Origin: Halomicroarcula saliterrae
Lineage (GTDB): Archaea > Halobacteriota > Halobacteria > Halobacteriales > Haloarculaceae
Length of the DNA: 64,000 nt
Assembly: GCF_031624395.1 (NCBI RefSeq)
Contig: NZ_JAMQON010000001.1
Location: forward strand, 186,001-250,000
Direction: 5' to 3'
Under the pieces are notes generated by a model. That model saw only the letters and a list, made by a program, of their open reading frames with translations, was not told where the DNA came from and did not search any database. A program made the translations under genes and the position numbers. Positions 1-13,834 of the stretch are shown here, piece after piece (the stretch's first letter is position 1; each line of letters begins with the position of its first letter).

Positions 1-3000
1 TCCGAGCCGCCGCCGTAGAACTTCCCGGCTTCGAGCGTGTCGCTGACCTCGAACTCGTAGGTCTTTTCGACGTCCTCGGTCTCGTCGACGAGGATAGTGT
101 GCGTGTCGACGTGGTCGGACGGGTCGACCGGCTCGCCGTCGATGAAGACGGTGACGCCTTTCCCCCAGAAGTGTTCCAGCCCGCCGCTGTAGACGTAGGT
201 GTCGGCCTCGCCGTCGACCTGGCCGTCCACAGTGGCACTGTCGACGGTGTCGTTGCGCGTGGCGAATCCGTCCTTCGAGACGTCGCTACCAGCTTTGAAC
301 CCGTAGGGAACCCCGTTCGGGGCCTCGATGCGAAGCGTCGTCCCGACGGACACGGTCTGCGTCGTAGTCGTCGACACGCCGTCGCTGTCAGTCACTGTCA
401 GCGTGACGTCGTACTCGCCGATCGCGTCGTAGCTGTGAGTGACTGTCCGTCCGGTGGCACTGGCGCCATCTCCGAATGCCCAGTCGAAGGTCACCGCGTC
501 GGCGGTTGATCCCGAGGCCCTGAAGCTGACTGGAGCGTTCGGCCTCGCAGTGGTCGGAGCATCGATAGTAATGTACGAGGAGTCCTCGAGAACCATGCCC
601 GGGAGTTTCGGTGGCATCACGTCGCTCCCACGTTCGACGTTAGTCCCTGTCGCCGACGTCTCCCATGCATGGTCGACGAAGTCACTGCGCTCGGCGTCAG
701 CAGGGACCATCTCGCCACCGCCTTTCAGTCCGTACTGTTCGTTCAGTTCCGTGTTCGTTTTGCCGGTGAGCGCCTCCACGTTGTCTTCGATTTCGTTTAC
801 TTCGTCCGGGAGATTCCTCGCCTGACCGAAGTTGAAATGAGAGAGTGTCGAGTTCATACTCTCTGCAACTTCTCGTTCCGAATCGGTGCCGGGGAAGCGA
901 CCGTTCCGTCTGGCGGTCTCCATCGGCTCGCTGTCGGGTTGCTGGTAATCGAAATACAGCTTCTTGTCGTCGACTCGAACGCCGCCCGAGTTCGCGTGAG
1001 TCTGGGCGAACGACGACGGCTCCGAATCGGGTCCCTGACTCAGTAGGATGCGGTAGTCGAAGAAGGCTGGGAACCCTATTGTCCTGAGGTCGTAGTGGTG
1101 CCATAGGTTCCGGTCAGCCCGCCTGTAGGTGTTGTTGTTTAGCCACAGCATAGAGCTCTTATGTATCGTCCCAGCCGGTGCGCTGACGTTCGTTCGCTCG
1201 TTGTCCAGCGTACAGTTGGTTACGATGGTCGTCGGTCCGGTACTAACTGCGATGCCGACGGCGAAGTTCTCGACCGTCGTATCTTGGTACATGCAGTTGG
1301 CGATCTGATACAGGTTGCTACCCCTGTTGATACCGTACCCGTTGCCGTCGCCGACGAGCCGACAGTCCTTGACCCAGCAGTGGCTCGACCAACTGATGCC
1401 GATGCCGTTGCCCCCGGTGAGCCAGTGACCGTCATCACGGTGGATACCGTAGGCAGTGAATCCCTCGATCTTGTTGTAGTCCTCGTACTTGTTGTGACGG
1501 AGTTGTCCGGAGTATCGTTGTGGTTTCATCCAGCGGGTTCCGACCCCTGATCCGACCGCGTACGCGGTGTTGTTGGCAAACGAGCGGATGGTAACGAAGC
1601 CGTGTGCGACGTGTGTGTCCGTCTCGCCCACGTCCGCGCTACGACCGTCGTTGCGGTTGAACGTCGCCTGTTCTTTGGGGTAGTTCGCCGGAATCATGAT
1701 ACCGTCGCGCATCACGCTGCCCCGGTCGATGCCCGTCTCGTCGAGTGGCATCCCCCAGTAGAAGAACCCGTAGTCCGCGTGGCCCGCGGCGACGTTGTCG
1801 TCGACGACGACGCCGGGGCTGTGCATCCAGAAGCCGTGTCCCGAGTGACCGAAATCGTCGATCGGATTCTCCGTGACTTCTGTCTGTCCGCCTTCGTCGG
1901 CCCTGTGGGCGACGTGTTGCCCGCTGCCCTCGCTCTTGATGGCGATGTTGCGCTCGAAGGAGCCCTGCTCGTCGCCGGCCTCGGTGACGAAGCCGGCACC
2001 GAGGACGTCGTAAGAGACGCAGTCGGTGATGTGTGCGTACGAGTGGTGGTTGACGAACCCCCAGCCGGGCGAGCCGTCGACGGCGCAGCCCCGCACTTCG
2101 TGGGGCTCCTTCGAGCGGTCGGCCCCGGTGACGTGAAAGTGCAGGGCGTACCGCGCCTTGGGGTTGGTCCCGGCCGGGTCGTCGACGTGTGGGTTGGTAA
2201 ACGGCTTCGATTTGTCGGTCCGGCCGAGGTCGTAGAGGCCGGCGTTCTCGACGACGACGCCCTCGCTGGTCATGAGCATCAGGTGGCCACGACGGGGGAT
2301 ATCGGTCGATTCGGACTGGAAGCGGACGCTCCGGGAGAGGTTGGCGACGTGGACGGGGAGGTCGTCTTTCGGCGGGACGTGGTCGTGTTCGAGGCCACTC
2401 GCCAGCGAGACCGTGCTCCCGTCGATACCCGTGACAGCCTTTACTTCGTCGGTGTCGGGGTCGTCCACGGGCGCGACGACCACGCGGTCGCCGGGCTGCC
2501 AGCCCTCGGGGGCGCTGGCGAGTTCCAGCCGGTCGTCGCCCGACGTCGGGAACGCGGCGAGTTCGGTCCACTCGGTCTTCTCGGCGCCGTGGATCGCCAC
2601 CTCGCCGACGGTAAGCAGGCCGCGGCTGCGACGGCCGGGGTCGTAGTCGGTGTCGATAGGGCCGCGGTCCAGAAAGGTCGTCGTCGCGGTCGCGTCCGGG
2701 CCCACCCGCGACTCCGCGGTCCCGACCTCGAATCGGCTCGCCTCGGTCGTCACGACGGTTTCGACGCGCAGGTGTGAGTCACTGCTCGGGTCGACCCGGT
2801 ACGTCCCGTCGACGCGGAGCCAGTGGAGCCGGTCGGTGGTGTCCGCGAGCGTGACGGTCACACCGCTCGGGATATGGACTCTGGCGTCCGCACCGGGGAC
2901 GCCGTTGTCCCAGACGTCCGGGTCCGTCCAGTCGCCGCTGCCGGTCGCCCTGTGGGTGGCCCGCTCGGTCGGGACGAGGTCGATCGCGGGACTGTGGGCG

Positions 3001-3149
3001 TCTTCACCGGTCTCGACCGCCCGCGACACCCCGACAGTGTCGTCGAACCCGACCGCTCCCATCGCCCCGACGCCGAGCAGTGTACGCAGTACGTCTCGCC
3101 GCGAGGTCGGCCCGATACGGCTCGGGCGGCGCGAGTCGCCGTCGGTCAT
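1..3149 (-). CDS. Tat-exported G8-domain parallel beta-helix protein with PKD domain (partial, C-terminus beyond window)
   Basis: The frame stays open from an ATG at 3149 to base 1, so about 1049 residues are seen and the C-terminus is missing. The N-terminus has a twin-arginine signal (SRRDVLRTLLGVG, residues 16-28). Residues about 71-160 match the G8 domain (SGDWTDPDVW, then VPGADARVHIPSG and later EVGTAESRVG). Residues 180-300 continue as in CEMIP/TMEM2-like G8 proteins (WTELAA, WQPGDRVVVA). A right-handed beta-helix follows, with repeated His/Asn-rich turns such as ARYALHFHVTG. A PKD domain (WAFGDG) lies at about 862-935, and then a domain common at the ends of haloarchaeal secreted proteins. 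It probably acts outside the cell on a polysaccharide or as an adhesin; the ligand is unknown. It is divergent from egsA. Confidence 0.85.
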   Translation of the reverse strand, partial: MTDGDSRRPSRIGPTSRRDVLRTLLGVGAMGAVGFDDTVGVSRAVETGEDAHSPAIDLVPTERATHRATGSGDWTDPDVWDNGVPGADARVHIPSGVTVTLADTTDRLHWLRVDGTYRVDPSSDSHLRVETVVTTEASRFEVGTAESRVGPDATATTTFLDRGPIDTDYDPGRRSRGLLTVGEVAIHGAEKTEWTELAAFPTSGDDRLELASAPEGWQPGDRVVVAPVDDPDTDEVKAVTGIDGSTVSLASGLEHDHVPPKDDLPVHVANLSRSVRFQSESTDIPRRGHLMLMTSEGVVVENAGLYDLGRTDKSKPFTNPHVDDPAGTNPKARYALHFHVTGADRSKEPHEVRGCAVDGSPGWGFVNHHSYAHITDCVSYDVLGAGFVTEAGDEQGSFERNIAIKSEGSGQHVAHRADEGGQTEVTENPIDDFGHSGHGFWMHSPGVVVDDNVAAGHADYGFFYWGMPLDETGIDRGSVMRDGIMIPANYPKEQATFNRNDGRSADVGETDTHVAHGFVTIRSFANNTAYAVGSGVGTRWMKPQRYSGQLRHNKYEDYNKIEGFTAYGIHRDDGHWLTGGNGIGISWSSHCWVKDCRLVGDGNGYGINRGSNLYQIANCMYQDTTVENFAVGIAVSTGPTTIVTNCTLDNERTNVSAPAGTIHKSSMLWLNNNTYRRADRNLWHHYDLRTIGFPAFFDYRILLSQGPDSEPSSFAQTHANSGGVRVDDKKLYFDYQQPDSEPMETARRNGRFPGTDSEREVAESMNSTLSHFNFGQARNLPDEVNEIEDNVEALTGKTNTELNEQYGLKGGGEMVPADAERSDFVDHAWETSATGTNVERGSDVMPPKLPGMVLEDSSYITIDAPTTARPNAPVSFRASGSTADAVTFDWAFGDGASATGRTVTHSYDAIGEYDVTLTVTDSDGVSTTTTQTVSVGTTLRIEAPNGVPYGFKAGSDVSKDGFATRNDTVDSATVDGQVDGEADTYVYSGGLEHFWGKGVTVFIDGEPVDPSDHVDTHTILVDETEDVEKTYEFEVSDTLEAGKFYGGGS

Positions 3150-4551: not shown

Positions 4552-5033
4552 ACGAACTCGCCGACGGCGTCCGGGTTGGCGTCCCAGCGGACCTCGTCAC
4601 CGTCCGGTTCGTCGGTGTCGACGACCTCGGCGGTAAACACCACGCTGAGTCGGTACACCGTCGACGCGGCCTCGTCGTCGCTGTTTCTGATGCCGTGGAT
4701 GTTGGCGCTGACGGCGTCGGTCACGGTGCAGTCGACGTCGGCGGCGTCCCTGACGATACGTTTGACCGCCGCCGAGAGCCGTTCGTCCGGCTCGGTCTGT
4801 CCGTGCGGGACCATCCACTCGCCGTCGCCCTCACGCAACAGCACGGCGCCGTCGTCGTCGCGGACCACCGCCCGAACGTCGAGCTGGCCGTCCTGTGATT
4901 TCTCCAGTGCCCGCTGGTACCGCTCGCTCCCCACCTCGAAGGTCGTCTGTGTGACCTCCGGCGGGCCGAACTCCTCTTCGAGTCGCGTCAACCGCTCCTC
5001 GACTCGCGACCGAGAGCGGCTGGCTACGTCCAT
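4548..5033 (-). CDS. Nudix-fold protein with degenerate Nudix box
   Basis: The 161-aa protein has an N-terminal helical segment (SRVEERLTRLEEEFGPP) and then a Nudix-like core. The Nudix box should read GX5EX7REUXEEXGU. Here residues around GQTEPDERLSAAVKRIVRD keep the first Gly and Glu but replace the catalytic RE..EE with RI..DA. Hydrolysis is therefore doubtful and a binding or regulatory role is possible. I chose the ATG at 5033; an in-frame upstream start at 5120 would add 29 basic residues unlike the family. It is convergent with egsA and follows the S9 peptidase gene on the same strand. Confidence 0.75.
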   Translation of the reverse strand: MDVASRSRSRVEERLTRLEEEFGPPEVTQTTFEVGSERYQRALEKSQDGQLDVRAVVRDDDGAVLLREGDGEWMVPHGQTEPDERLSAAVKRIVRDAADVDCTVTDAVSANIHGIRNSDDEAASTVYRLSVVFTAEVVDTDEPDGDEVRWDANPDAVGEFV

Positions 5034-5141
5034 GCCTGCCCGTCGCTTCCGACTGATATAAAGCCAGCCACTCGTTTTCAGCGTCTGAAGCCGCCGCTCG
5101 TAGCCGGTAGCGCCCCTCACTCGCGATAGCCGACGGCGAGT

Positions 5142-6938
<1,797 letters not shown>

Positions 6939-7020
6939 GCTCGCTCGAAGGGGTGGCGAGAGCAAAACGCTTTGCCGGCGAACGGGTGGGTTTTTGAGCA
7001 CACCCGTCGTGTACTGCGGT

Positions 7021-8070
7021 ATGCGTGTCGCGGTCGTCGCTATGGAGACGAGTCACCACCGGGACACAGCGGGCCGGCGACACCTCGACCGGCTCGCCGC
7101 GAACCTCGCCGACGCCGGCCACGAGGTGTCCGTCTTCTGTGCCCAGTGGTGGGGCGGCAACGCGACGCAGTTCGCACCCGACGATATCACCTACCGCGCG
7201 GTCACCGTCTCGCCGACCGAGCCCTCGTTCTGTACGCGCCTGCCGGCGTTGCTGGCGAAGTACCGCCCCGACGTCGTCCACGCCGTCCCGACGCCGTCGT
7301 CGGTGCTGCGCGCGGCCAACGCCGGCGCCAAACTCGCCCGCGCACCGCTGGTCGTCGAGTGGTACGGCGACCACGAGCGGACGGTCTCCGACCGCGCGCT
7401 CGGGACCGCAGACCGGTTCGTCACCCCCTCGGAACTCGTCCAGACGCGGCTCTGGGAGGCCGGCGCGGGGAGCGACCGGACGACGGTCATCCCGGAGAGC
7501 ATCGACATGGACCTCGTTCGCGAAGTCGAGCCCGCCGAGGAGGTCGACGTGGTGTACGCCCACCCGCTGGACGAGAGCGCCAACATCGAATCGCTGTTTC
7601 TCGGGCTGGCCGAACTCCGACAGCGGGGCTGGTCCGCGACGGTCGTCGGCGACGGCCCCGAACGCGGGGCCTACGAGCAGGAGGCCGCCGATCTGCGCAT
7701 CGAAGACCGCGTCGAGTTCGTCGGCGAGTGTGACCGCGAGCGCCGCCTCGCTATCTACAAGGGCGCGCAGGTGTTCGTCCAGACGGCCTTCCGCGAACAG
7801 TTCGCGACGGAGCTGCTGTGGGCGCTGGCCTGTGGCTGTATCGCCGTCGTCGAGTATCAGGCCGAGTCGAGCGCCCACGAACTCGTCGAACACCGCGACC
7901 GGGACTTCCGCGTGACGACGCCACAGGAGATCGCCGACAGCATCGTCGAGTCCGCCGGGATGGACCACCGCACCGTCGACGAGTCGCTGGCCGAATACGA
8001 CCACGCGGCGGTGACCGAGCGGTACGAGGCGCTCTACGAGCGACTGGTCGACGAGCGAGGGCTGTTCTGA
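7021..8070 (+). CDS. Glycosyltransferase family 4-like protein
   Basis: The 349-aa protein has the two Rossmann-like halves of a GT-B glycosyltransferase. The N-terminal half has RHLDRLAANLADAGHEVSVF and a DVVHAVPTP motif. The C-terminal half has VVGDGPERGAYE and VEFVGECDRERRLAIYKGAQVFVQTA. The usual EX7E sugar-nucleotide motif is altered (FREQFATELLWALACG), so donor binding may differ. No acceptor can be inferred; envelope glycoprotein or glycolipid glycosylation is the likely context. The ATG at 7021 is the only good start. It is divergent from the S9 peptidase gene. Confidence 0.8.
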   Translation: MRVAVVAMETSHHRDTAGRRHLDRLAANLADAGHEVSVFCAQWWGGNATQFAPDDITYRAVTVSPTEPSFCTRLPALLAKYRPDVVHAVPTPSSVLRAANAGAKLARAPLVVEWYGDHERTVSDRALGTADRFVTPSELVQTRLWEAGAGSDRTTVIPESIDMDLVREVEPAEEVDVVYAHPLDESANIESLFLGLAELRQRGWSATVVGDGPERGAYEQEAADLRIEDRVEFVGECDRERRLAIYKGAQVFVQTAFREQFATELLWALACGCIAVVEYQAESSAHELVEHRDRDFRVTTPQEIADSIVESAGMDHRTVDESLAEYDHAAVTERYEALYERLVDERGLF

Positions 8071-8080
8071 GGGGCGCAGC

Positions 8081-8242
8081 TCACTGCAAATACAGGTAGA
8101 GGACAGAGAACGCGATTCCGGCCAGCCCGGCCTGCAGTACCGCCTCGAACAGCCCGCCGTCGAAGAGAAGCAGCTGGATCGCCCCCCAGACGAGGACCCA
8201 CGCGACGGTGGTTACGGTGGTGAAAACCCAGGGGTTCCGCAT
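8081..8242 (-). CDS. Small two-helix membrane protein
   Basis: A 53-aa protein (starting MRNPWVFTTVTTVAWVLVWG) with two predicted transmembrane segments (about 7-27 and 32-51) split by a short FDGGLFEA turn. It lies convergent to the glycosyltransferase gene with a 10-base gap and is divergent from the downstream helicase. This arrangement and the composition resemble the many small haloarchaeal membrane proteins of unknown function. No function is assigned. Confidence 0.65.
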   Translation of the reverse strand: MRNPWVFTTVTTVAWVLVWGAIQLLLFDGGLFEAVLQAGLAGIAFSVLYLYLQ

Positions 8243-8371
8243 GGATAGCTCGGGCACAGCGGACCGTTGTCGAGCGACCGGGAAAACTCCGGGGTCGACG
8301 CGGCGCGAGCGCTCGGTGACCGACCCGGGCAGACGAAACTCGTTTTGTCCGTCCGGCCCCAGACGCCTGTA

Positions 8372-10204
8372 GTGACCACCGACACCGACGACGCCCGCCT
8401 CGAACTCGACGCGGTGTACGACGCCATCGACGCTGTTGGCCGCCCCCATCTGACGGCGACCGAACTCTCCCGCAAGACCGACCTCACGCCCGACGAGGCC
8501 CGCGACGCGCTGGAAGCGCTGGCCGAGACCGGCGAGATACAGCGCCAGGACGTGACCGAGGTCGAGTCGGTGTGGTACCCGACCGACGTGGCGGAAGTGA
8601 CCGACCGCGAGCGCGTGGTTCTGTTTCCGGACCGTCGCGAGGTCGTCGTCGAGCACCCCGACCAGTTCACGCGGGCCCAGCTCTCGCAGTTCGCCCGACT
8701 GGGGGACAGCAATCGCTCTGGCGGCTACGTCTACGAGCTGCGCGAGGCCGACATCTGGGCCGCGCCCCACGAGAGCCTCGACGACCTGCTCGCCACCATG
8801 CGGGACGTGCTGGGCGAGCGGTCGACCCATCTGGAGGAGTGGGTGACGAGCCAGTGGGAGCGGGCCCGGAAGTTCCGCCTCTACACGCACGAGGACGGCT
8901 ACGTCGTCCTCGAAGCCGAGAGCGACGAGCTGATGGGCAACGTCGCCCGACCGAAACTCGACGACGACCTCCTCCGGGCGCCCATCTCCGACTCGGAGTC
9001 GTGGGTCGACGAGGACGCCACCGCACAGGTCAAGCGGACGCTGTACGAGGCCGGCTACCCGGTGCGTGACGACCGCGAGCTGGCGACGGGCGAACCGCTC
9101 GACGTGGAGCTTCGCCTCCGGCTGCGGGACTACCAGGCCGACTGGGTCGAGCGGTTCACCGAACAGGGCTCCGGCGTGTTCGTCGGCCCGCCGGGGTCCG
9201 GCAAGACGGTGGCGGCGATGGGCGCGATGGCCGCCGTCGGCGGCGAGACGCTGATTCTGGTCCCCTCGCGCGAGCTGGCCACGCAGTGGCGCGACGAACT
9301 CGTGCGCCACACGACCCTCTCCGACGACGACATCGGCGAGTACCACGGCGGCGAGAAGGAGATTCGACCCGTCACCATCGCGACCTACCGCACGGCGGGG
9401 ATGGACCGCCACAGGAAGCTGTTCGACCAGCGCAAGTGGGGGCTCATCGTCTTCGACGAGGTCCACCACGTCCCGGCACCCATCTACCGCCGGAGTGCGA
9501 ACCTCCAGACCAAACACCGACTCGGGCTGACGGCGACGCCAACTCGCGAGAGCGACGACGAGGAGGAGATTTTCACGCTCGTCGGCCCGCCCATCGGCAC
9601 CGACTGGGGGAAGCTGTTCGACGAGGGGTACGTCGCCGAGCCGGAGGTCGAGATACGGCTGGTGCCGTGGGGCACCGACGGCGAGCGCACCGAGTACGCC
9701 GCCACCTCGGGCCACGACCGCCGGCAGGCCGCGGCCGGGAACAGCGGGAAGATAGACGAGATACGCTACACGCTGGCCGAGCATCCCGAGGCCAAAGCCC
9801 TCGTCTTCGTCGAGTATCTGGACGACGGCGACGCCATCAGCGAGGCCATCGACGCGCCCTTCGTCAGCGGCGAGACGCGCCACGCCGAGCGCGAGCGGCT
9901 GTTCGACGCGTTCCGTCGCGGCGAACAGGACACGCTGGTGGTCTCCCGCGTGGGCGACGAGGGTATCGACCTGCCCGACGCCGAACTCGCCGTCGTGGCC
10001 TCGGGACTGGGCGGCTCCCGCCGACAGGGCGCCCAGCGGGCCGGCCGGACGATGCGGCCCGCCGGCGACGCGAAGATGGTCGTGTTGGCGACCCGCGGGA
10101 CGACCGAAGAGGACTTCGTCCGCCGGCAGATGCGCCATCTCGCCTCGAAGGGGATTCAGGTCACCGAACAGGAGGCCGCGGCGGTGGAGTCGGGGACCGA
10201 CTGA
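8372..10204 (+). CDS. XPB/Rad25-type superfamily 2 DNA helicase
   Basis: A 610-aa helicase likely to unwind DNA during repair. An N-terminal winged-helix-like part (ELDAVYDAIDAVGRPHLTATELS) and a family-specific region precede the core. Helicase motifs are Q-like RDYQADWVERF, Walker A GPPGSGKT, DEVHH (motif II), LTATPTRE (III) and QRAGRTMRP (VI). The DEVHH form and overall order are typical of XPB. The start is taken as GTG at 8372 (VTTDTDDARLEL); the open frame extends upstream to 8267 but that part is Arg/Ser-rich and unlike the rest. A second, shorter XPB lies at 60139, so this chromosome segment carries two paralogues. Confidence 0.85.
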   Translation: MTTDTDDARLELDAVYDAIDAVGRPHLTATELSRKTDLTPDEARDALEALAETGEIQRQDVTEVESVWYPTDVAEVTDRERVVLFPDRREVVVEHPDQFTRAQLSQFARLGDSNRSGGYVYELREADIWAAPHESLDDLLATMRDVLGERSTHLEEWVTSQWERARKFRLYTHEDGYVVLEAESDELMGNVARPKLDDDLLRAPISDSESWVDEDATAQVKRTLYEAGYPVRDDRELATGEPLDVELRLRLRDYQADWVERFTEQGSGVFVGPPGSGKTVAAMGAMAAVGGETLILVPSRELATQWRDELVRHTTLSDDDIGEYHGGEKEIRPVTIATYRTAGMDRHRKLFDQRKWGLIVFDEVHHVPAPIYRRSANLQTKHRLGLTATPTRESDDEEEIFTLVGPPIGTDWGKLFDEGYVAEPEVEIRLVPWGTDGERTEYAATSGHDRRQAAAGNSGKIDEIRYTLAEHPEAKALVFVEYLDDGDAISEAIDAPFVSGETRHAERERLFDAFRRGEQDTLVVSRVGDEGIDLPDAELAVVASGLGGSRRQGAQRAGRTMRPAGDAKMVVLATRGTTEEDFVRRQMRHLASKGIQVTEQEAAAVESGTD

Positions 10205-11395: not shown

Positions 11396-13834
11396 TTACT
11401 CGCCGACCCCGTCGGGGTTCGCCGCCGCGTTCGCGACGTTGACCGCGGCGACGTTCTCGGCCACGTCGTGGACCCGTATCACGTCTGCCCCCCGCTCCGT
11501 GGCCATGGTCGTCCCCGCTATCGTCGCTTCCAGACAGTCACCGGGTCGCTCCCCGACCAGCCCGAACAGCGACTTGTGGGAGTGGCCGACCAGAATCGGA
11601 CAGCCAAGCGCCCGGAACTCCCCGATGCGGTCGAGCAGCTCGAAGCTCTCGGCGGGGGACTTCCCGAAGCCGATGCCGGGGTCGACGAGAATCTGCTCGC
11701 GGTCCAGCCCGGCTTTCTCCGCCAGCAGGACCCGCTCGGTGAGTTCGTCGATGACGTCCCCGACCACGTCGTCGTAATGGATGTCGCTGTCCGGATCGAC
11801 GGGGGTCTCGATGGAGTGCATCACGACGACCGGCACGTCGTGGTCGGCGGCGACCAGTCTCATCTCGGGGTCTTCCAGCCCGGACACGTCGTTGAGGATG
11901 TCCGCACCGGCGTCGAGGGCCGCCCGGGCGACCGCGGCCTTCCGGGTGTCGACGGAGACGGCCACGTCGGTCTCGGACAGCGCCTCGATGACCGGGACGA
12001 CCCGCTCGATTTCGTCCTCGACCGGGACCGGGTCGGCGCCCGGGCGCGTCGACTCCCCGCCGATGTCGAGGATGTCCGCGCCGTCTTCGACCATCGACTC
12101 GGCGCGTGCGACCGCGTCCTCGACGGCGTTGTACTCCCCGCCGTCGTGGAAGGAGTCGGGCGTGATGTTGAGGATGCCCATCACCGCGGTGCCGTCGCTC
12201 CACGGGTAGTCGGCCCCGGCAGCCGGCTGCCGGATGTCCAGCGCCTCCCTGAGCTCGTCGGAAAAGGTCGAGAGCCCGTAGGGCTGGCCGTCCAGCTTGT
12301 CCGCGAGGCGTTTGAACTGCGCCATCGTCCCCATCATGACGATGTCGACGCGTTCCTCGGCCTGGTCGTTCAGGCCCGAGACGGCACACTCCCCGCCGAG
12401 CGAGAGGAGTTCCTCCTTGAGATACTGGGCCTGTCGGGGCTGGACGCGGGTCCGCAGCACTCGGTGGACGGCCTTCCCCCGCATCCGCCACGCGCCGGCG
12501 CTGGTGACGTGGGCGGCCTCGATAGTCTCCCTGGCTTCGGGAATCGAATCCACGTCCTTGGGCACCACCGGCCGTGTCCAGCGGGTCCGCGCCTCGCGAA
12601 CGGCGTACAGCGAGCCGGTGACGAGAACCGCGTCGCCCTCGTCGGCGGCGTCGAGGGCCATCCCGACGGCGCCGGCCACGTCCGAACGAGTCCGCACCTC
12701 CGCGTCGGTCCCCTCGCGCAGCGCCTCGGCCAGCACGTCGGGGCTCTCGGCCCGGTCGACGTTCGGACGACAGGCGACAGCGTGGCCGGCGTCGGCGAGT
12801 TCGGCGGCGATGGCCGCGTGGTCCTTGTCCACCATCGCGCCCAGCACGACGTGGAGGTCGTCGTAGTCGAAACTCCCCAGCGTCTCCACGGTCCGTTCGA
12901 GCCCGCCGGGGTTGTGCGCCCCGTCGAGCACCACCAGTGGCGACTCGCCCATCACTTCGAAGCGGCCGGGCCAGTGGGCGTTTCGCAGGCCGCGCTCGAT
13001 GTCGGTTCGGGACACGTCGGCGACCTGTCTGGCGAGCGTCGCGGCGATACCCGCGTTGTGGGCCTGGTGTGCCCCCAGCAGCGGGAGATGCGTGTCGACG
13101 GCCCAGTCGGGCCCCTCGATGCCGACGGCGGCCTCCAGTCCGTCACGGCCGCCGTAGCTGACGTGGACCTCCGACTCCTCGCCGTCGCCGACGGTAACCA
13201 CGTCGCCGGCCTGTTCGCGGACGGCGGCGAGCGCGTCGCCGGTCGCGCCGGTCACCAGCGGTCGGTCGGCGGGCGCGACGTGGGCCTTGTCCGTGGCGAT
13301 CTCCTCGACGGTATCGCCCAGAATGTGGGTGTGTTCGAGCGTGACACTGGTCACCGCGCTGGCGACGGGGTCGACGACGCTGGTGGCGTCGTACTTCCCG
13401 CCGATGCCGACTTCGAGGACGGCGACGTCGACGTCCTGTCGGTCGAACTCCCAGAAGGCGAAGGCGGTCAGCGTCTCGAAGAAGGTCGGCGACGCCCCCT
13501 CGGCGCCACAGTCGGTGATGTACTCGCGGACCCCCTCGACGAACTCGACGACGGCGGCCTCGGGCACCTTGCGGCCGTTCACGCGGATGCGCTCGCGGAC
13601 GTCGTCGAGATGCGGCGAGGTGTAGAGGCCGACGTCGAGTCCGGCCTCCCGGAGCGTGCGTTCGAGCATCCGGGCGGTCGACCCCTTCCCGTTGGAGCCG
13701 GCGACCTGTACACAGCGTGGTCCCTCCTGTGGGTCGGACAGCGCAGACAGCAGGCTCCGCGTGGCGTCGGTGCCGGCCCGCGAATCGAACCGGCGCAACT
13801 CGAAGAGGAAGTTCGCGGCCTCGTGGAACTCCAT
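11396..13834 (-). CDS. folCP: Bifunctional folylpolyglutamate/dihydrofolate synthase - dihydropteroate synthase
   Basis: An 812-aa fusion of two folate-pathway enzymes. Residues 1-430 are a Mur-ligase-type FolC with ATP loop GSNGKGS (about 46-52), SPHLDDVRERI and LEVGIGGKYDATS. Residues about 430-545 form a linker domain (RMRGKAVHRVLRTRVQPR). Residues 552-812 are dihydropteroate synthase with MGILNITPDSFHDGG, DIGGESTRPG, DILNDVSG and GHSHKS. FolP joins the pterin to p-aminobenzoate and FolC adds glutamate, so both reactions are in one chain. A FolCP fusion has been described in Haloferax volcanii. The ATG start at 13834 is well supported. Confidence 0.94.
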   Translation of the reverse strand: MEFHEAANFLFELRRFDSRAGTDATRSLLSALSDPQEGPRCVQVAGSNGKGSTARMLERTLREAGLDVGLYTSPHLDDVRERIRVNGRKVPEAAVVEFVEGVREYITDCGAEGASPTFFETLTAFAFWEFDRQDVDVAVLEVGIGGKYDATSVVDPVASAVTSVTLEHTHILGDTVEEIATDKAHVAPADRPLVTGATGDALAAVREQAGDVVTVGDGEESEVHVSYGGRDGLEAAVGIEGPDWAVDTHLPLLGAHQAHNAGIAATLARQVADVSRTDIERGLRNAHWPGRFEVMGESPLVVLDGAHNPGGLERTVETLGSFDYDDLHVVLGAMVDKDHAAIAAELADAGHAVACRPNVDRAESPDVLAEALREGTDAEVRTRSDVAGAVGMALDAADEGDAVLVTGSLYAVREARTRWTRPVVPKDVDSIPEARETIEAAHVTSAGAWRMRGKAVHRVLRTRVQPRQAQYLKEELLSLGGECAVSGLNDQAEERVDIVMMGTMAQFKRLADKLDGQPYGLSTFSDELREALDIRQPAAGADYPWSDGTAVMGILNITPDSFHDGGEYNAVEDAVARAESMVEDGADILDIGGESTRPGADPVPVEDEIERVVPVIEALSETDVAVSVDTRKAAVARAALDAGADILNDVSGLEDPEMRLVAADHDVPVVVMHSIETPVDPDSDIHYDDVVGDVIDELTERVLLAEKAGLDREQILVDPGIGFGKSPAESFELLDRIGEFRALGCPILVGHSHKSLFGLVGERPGDCLEATIAGTTMATERGADVIRVHDVAENVAAVNVANAAANPDGVGE

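Follow-up and report, generated by a model that had tools for sequence, protein, structure and literature searches.

The first gene of the window (the whole stretch of 64,000 nucleotides that was analysed, G000:C1:186001-250000 of a 4.2-Mb haloarchaeal genome) raises the question of what a haloarchaeon would do with a relative of CEMIP and TMEM2, animal proteins that matter in hyaluronan turnover and in cancer. The gene lies on the minus strand, with its ATG at window position 3149 and a reading frame (3-3149) that is open past the window start. Its product, P0001, has a full length of 1164 amino acids (L003:9655-13149), of which the window holds residues 1-1049; the last 115 residues are outside, the gene extending about 345 bp past the window start. 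A second G8/CEMIP-type protein, P0002, is coded on another contig of the same genome.

P0001 begins with a putative twin-arginine (Tat) signal (residues 15-34; 3048..3107, on the minus strand as are all P0001 features below). Its Pfam TAT_signal match is weak (16.9 bits against a cut-off of 22.7), and the twin-arginine pair, R17 and R18, is invariant among the aligned haloarchaeal relatives. The G8 domain (PF10162) occupies residues 80-198 (2556..2912), with E 1.4e-12 and 48.0 bits in hmmscan (cut-off 22.9) and 53.4 bits in a profile search of the genome. Downstream of it lie the CEMIP_beta-hel domain (PF24606; residues 330-465; 1755..2162; E 2.4e-14, 54.0 bits, cut-off 27.3), the C-terminal coils of a right-handed beta-helix, matched by Beta_helix above the Pfam cut-off (residues 559-673; 1131..1475), and a PKD domain (residues 861-934; 348..569; E 7.7e-18; PKD_4 64.8 bits, cut-off 27). 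The G8 and PKD domains had both been named in a sequence-only reading of this DNA and are confirmed here, as are the two motifs which that reading had singled out, WQPGDRVVVA (residues 217-226; 2472..2501; WKPGDQIVVA in TMEM2 according to the profile alignment) and LEHDHVPPKD (residues 253-262; 2364..2393): W217, G220, D221 and H257 are kept through to human TMEM2. The proposed “GG/beta-helix region” is reduced to its second half. A Pfam scan found no GG/lectin/ILEI domain anywhere in P0001, and TMEM2 skips from chain residue 164 to 335 where the prokaryotic profile moves from 198 to 205, which leaves P0001 with a short loop at the site of the TMEM2 lectin insert; the region is thus beta-helix only. 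With GG absent, the claimed agreement with the domain order of CEMIP covers only G8 followed by the beta-helix, and the PKD domain is not a CEMIP feature.

Behind the PKD domain a duplicated beta domain begins, recognized by eye (residues 940-1049 in the window; 3..332), which has no Pfam match and is common to L026 and to one other locus of the same genome. The copy at this other locus (L112, G000:C1:1191920-1192432) belongs to a PKD-like protein and its matched frame has one in-frame TAG. The last ~50 residues of P0001 (L003:9655-9802, minus strand) form a dockerin-like acidic tail with the look of a duplicated calcium loop, a tail also found in L026; identity as a dockerin was considered and dropped, Pfam giving it no support.

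Is the likeness to the animal proteins one of descent? Searches of the PDB with single sequences returned PKD domains only for full-length P0001 and no match for its paralogue P0002, TMEM2 remaining unseen, so that a profile was needed. A 30-sequence family profile run against all PDB chains matched TMEM2 (8c6i) as the sole sequence, with an E value of 1.8e-44 and colinearly across G8 and the helix; identity between P0001 and TMEM2 is 23% over 354 core columns. The AlphaFold model of the core (residues 50-700, 55 sequences; pTM 0.92, mean pLDDT 86.9) consists of a succession of strands between residues ~65 and ~670, which form one continuous right-handed beta-helix including G8. The best structural match of this model in the PDB is TMEM2 (E 1.7e-14, TMq 0.56), which is again the first match of the full-length model. 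The next fold matches, with lower scores, are phage capsule depolymerases, the K1 capsule lyase and GH110 and GH87 enzymes; these are right-handed beta-helices like P0001, but their TM-scores reach up to ~0.40 against 0.56 (query-normalised) for TMEM2, and no sequence relationship with them was found. As judged from the profile and the model, P0001 is a lectin-less prokaryotic member of the homologous family of the animal CEMIP/TMEM2 proteins (CEMIP itself being compared via its Pfam profile), and the relationship claimed earlier is upheld. G8 is, in the model, no separate module and constitutes the first coils of a helix that runs from residue ~60 to ~680.

The TMEM2 ectodomain (8c6i) and its paralogue CEMIP/KIAA1199 have, like P0001, a continuous right-handed beta-helix starting with G8, and TMEM2 shares with P0001 the WxxGD motif, R273, RYxxHFH, H368, E390 and FW. 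P0001 differs from TMEM2 in the lack of the lectin-like insert after G8, in its putative Tat rather than eukaryotic export, and in its C-terminus, which carries the PKD and other domains whereas TMEM2 carries domain X and a second lectin domain. The lectin-like domain of TMEM2 interrupts the helix after its third turn and harbours all three substitutions reported to abolish activity (R265, D273 and D286); an active site could not be assigned in the structure study (PMC10206443). The hyaluronidase activity of TMEM2 is itself disputed (PMC12254123), the human ectodomain being devoid of it in vitro in one careful study (PMC10206443). We consider it highly improbable that P0001 is a true haloarchaeal hyaluronidase or glycosaminoglycan depolymerase with the function reported for CEMIP. 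The homology as such would agree with this role, as would the existence of Haloarcula strains that grow on hyaluronan; however, the hyaluronan degradation of those strains was assigned to a plasmid-borne PL8 lyase, in a paper that makes no mention of G8 (PMC13260240), hence the label “hyaluronidase” is not supported for P0001. P0001 also lacks the lectin-like domain that bears the activity-linked residues of TMEM2, and it belongs to the subfamily more distant from TMEM2 (see below). A Lyase_8 (PL8) profile search gave no match in the genome of P0001, and none in the control genomes either, so that this negative does not count as evidence of absence.

The family is widespread and patchily distributed: profile searches found G8 in 12 of the 146 genomes of the taxonomic family and CEMIP_beta-hel in 17 of the 292 genomes of the class. 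Across 84,980 species genomes, a scan with a single peptide pattern built around HFH gave 39 loci, a lower bound, in haloarchaea, Pseudomonadota, Planctomycetota, Myxococcota, Bacteroidota, Cyanobacteriota, Campylobacterota, Verrucomicrobiota, Armatimonadota and the candidate division WWE3; the bacterial distribution is that of this motif scan. With relatives in about nine bacterial phyla and in many haloarchaea, G8 is not the mainly animal domain that it had been taken for. The bacterial G8/beta-helix proteins (Roseovarius, Planctomycetota, Campylobacterota, Flavobacteriaceae, Cyanobacteria) have the P0001 core at ~28-36% identity with the same invariant residues, but differ from P0001 in their accessory domains and in their exosortase/EPS-gene neighbours. 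A relative of the core, with 26% identity, is also coded on a viral-classed contig (IMGVR_UViG_3300036859_000142; L109:5001-5993). A phage origin of the family was rejected, as this weak match is the one viral relative and the structural matches to phage spikes are due to a common fold. Tandem duplicated G8/CEMIP-type genes occur in Halobacteriaceae archaeon SHR40 (L072:808-3747 and 4734-9968), where the pair adjoins rml genes, and at L099 and L088.

Which prokaryotic proteins are closest to the animal ones? In a maximum-likelihood tree (419 columns) P0001 and P0002 fall within a haloarchaeal clade of 21 rows (support 100/99) nested in a broad prokaryotic group, while human TMEM2 clusters with six other haloarchaeal proteins (support 100/99), its long branch and unusual composition making its exact placement unsure. 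The grouping agrees in part with the identities (31-34% over ~350 columns between TMEM2 and this second haloarchaeal subfamily, 23% for P0001), with the CEMIP_beta-hel scores (130-157 bits for the second subfamily versus 54 for P0001) and with a stretch of ~18 residues ahead of RYxxHFH that is missing in TMEM2. Subject to the long-branch caveat, it is therefore the second haloarchaeal subfamily, and not that of P0001, that looks closer to TMEM2, contrary to the idea of P0001 as the archaeal protein closest to CEMIP. The second subfamily includes proteins of Haloarcula amylolytica (L107), Natrinema altunense (L106), Halosimplex carlsbadense (L108) and their kin. Like P0001, its members have the same core, a putative Tat-type N-terminus and the invariant residues; unlike P0001, they group with TMEM2, some have a split G8, and one is coded between chitinase genes. 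G8 is split in four of these proteins (L108, L035, L036 and L037) by an insert of ~200 residues, and in the sole split case scanned, that of Halosimplex carlsbadense (L108:3945-6515, plus strand), two CBM5/12 modules of the chitin-binding type lie inside G8.

Conservation points to a small set of residues. Y334, H337 and H339, all within RYALHFH (residues 333-339; 2133..2153), together with H368 (2046..2048) and E390 (1980..1982), are identical in 59/59 prokaryotic rows and in human TMEM2, an invariance that for YxxHFH is partly ascertained, the motif having been used to find the 39 loci; about 27 of the rows also came up in separate Pfam profile searches, and the motif pattern did not include H368 or E390. 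R333, D221, E235, H257 and R273 are present in 58 of the 59 prokaryotic rows and in TMEM2. Superposition of the coils YALHFHVTG, WGFVNHHSY, AGFVTEAGD and HGFWMHSPG places H339, H368 and E390 at one position in three consecutive coils. This coil position is hydrophobic in 6% of the cells, 81% holding a charged or amide residue, and the position three residues before it is 84% hydrophobic, the strands being those of the model and the sixth coil being misregistered by one residue in the count. Residues at the same coil position of a parallel beta-helix stack about 5 Angstrom apart. From the alignment and the model we infer that the H339-H368-E390 row is a candidate active site of P0001. The TMEM2 counterparts of the five invariant residues are at sequence positions 465, 468, 470, 503 and 526 of 8c6i, which correspond to about Y547/H550/H552/H585/E608 of full-length TMEM2 when an offset of +82 is applied; the unpaired Cys554 (PMC10206443) bears out this offset, as it falls at 8c6i position 472.

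The surroundings of the P0001 gene say little of its function: read by eye, both P0001 and P0002 have housekeeping-type neighbours, with no polysaccharide genes and nothing indicative of function in the P0001 neighbourhood. Several relatives are placed differently. In Haloarcula amylolytica (L025:2121-13592, G007:C74) two GH18 chitinase genes flank the TMEM2-like G8 gene, and an S8 protease and another CBM5/12-PKD protein are encoded close by. A genome-wide link of G8 with GH18 was rejected, since the two occur in 12 and 17 of the 146 family genomes with one genome shared versus ~1.4 expected by chance; as there is no family-wide association, the chitin link is local to the second subfamily. 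Both Natrialba asiatica and genome G363 have a malectin/GH16 gene next to their gene of the P0001 subfamily; Pfam confirmed a TrmB regulator and an oligo_HPY ABC ATPase at the Natrialba asiatica locus, and the G363 locus has similar reading frames. In two haloarchaea relatives of P0001 adjoin rmlC- and rmlA-type genes, one of these loci also having an rmlB-type gene, and rmlC-, rmlA- and rmlB-type genes adjoin a relative in Ruegeria. An exosortase is coded near the relative in three Roseovarius, in one of them along with a sulfotransferase, and Wzz-type genes stand beside bacterial relatives. Among the accessory domains of the relatives are CBM6, CBM35, malectin, PA14, PKD, CBM5/12 and bacterial cadherin/Ig. 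Neighbours and accessory domains of the relatives indicate work on extracellular polysaccharide, in degradative as well as in surface-glycan settings.

We propose, with moderate confidence, that P0001 is a Tat-exported modular right-handed beta-helix protein predicted to act on, and most likely to cleave, an extracellular glycan. Homology, domain order, coil register and conservation through to human have been demonstrated, as have the carbohydrate-binding modules and polysaccharide-gene neighbours of the relatives; the reaction of P0001 would be glycan cleavage, by hydrolysis or beta-elimination, taking place outside the cell on environmental polysaccharide or on that of its own surface. Secretion and action on extracellular polysaccharide, both suggested by the sequence-only reading, thus draw support from the profile, the fold, the domain partners and the neighbouring genes of relatives. 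P0001 would be exported by the Tat route and fold outside the cell, and the polysaccharide would be bound and cleaved in a groove of the helix, on the face where successive coils each contribute one residue to the row H339-H368-E390, flanked by H337, Y334 and R333. The PKD domain and the two further beta domains may serve as spacer or attachment modules. The substrate probably differs between the subfamilies.

A non-catalytic role is credible, though we think it unlikely: P0001 could serve as an adhesin or matrix protein that binds glycans, with the beta-helix as a rigid stalk that attaches to exopolysaccharide or S-layer and the conserved row as a structural, metal or ligand site. The inactivity of the TMEM2 ectodomain in vitro (PMC10206443) would fit such a protein, as would the PKD, PA14, malectin and bacterial cadherin/Ig partners (PKD, PA14 and cadherin-like domains suit adhesins too) and the exosortase and rml neighbours, which suggest matrix assembly over digestion. 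However, strict retention of charged solvent-side residues from archaea through bacteria to human is more typical of catalysis, and the GH16/TrmB/ABC and GH18 neighbours look catabolic. An enzyme that works on the producer's own exopolysaccharide during its assembly or release, as a trimming lyase or hydrolase or as an epimerase, is a special case of the glycan-cleaving protein proposed above, and one to which we give a rather low probability. Beta-helix enzymes act on the own exopolysaccharide in alginate systems, and the rml genes near the two haloarchaeal relatives and that of Ruegeria would accord with this role, as would the exosortase, sulfotransferase and Wzz-type genes of the bacterial loci. 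AlgE4 and AlgG are among the fold matches of the P0001 model as well, but these epimerase matches are weak (E > 1e-3), the P0001 locus has no such assembly genes, and other relatives are in catabolic settings.

A broader proposal, tentative and in our view doubtful, is that all of the CEMIP/TMEM2 family uses the YxxHFH...H...E row as its active site, inherited from prokaryotic polysaccharide enzymes, and that the animal branch arose from a chitin-associated (GlcNAc-polymer) lineage resembling that of Haloarcula amylolytica and Halosimplex, its lectin domain being a later acquisition. A possible ancestral substrate is suggested by the chitin-linked haloarchaeal subfamily, which seems to be nearer to TMEM2. 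Since the prokaryotic form is free of the lectin domain and amenable to expression and mutagenesis, and since five residues have stayed the same from archaea to human, the dispute over TMEM2 is open to direct experiment. The P0001 family is not new, as G8 and CEMIP_beta-hel are already Pfam families whose profiles detect the prokaryotic proteins. A literature search covering few subscription journals found no description of the lectin-free architecture, the combination of PKD and putative Tat export in haloarchaea, the chitin-linked sister subfamily or the invariant row; for archaea with the G8 domain it retrieved only an unrelated flagellate paper, and the literature searched attributes no activity to any of the prokaryotic members. 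Elsewhere in the window, at 11396-13834 on the minus strand, an ORF of 812 amino acids appears by eye to code for a fusion of folylpolyglutamate synthase and dihydropteroate synthase.
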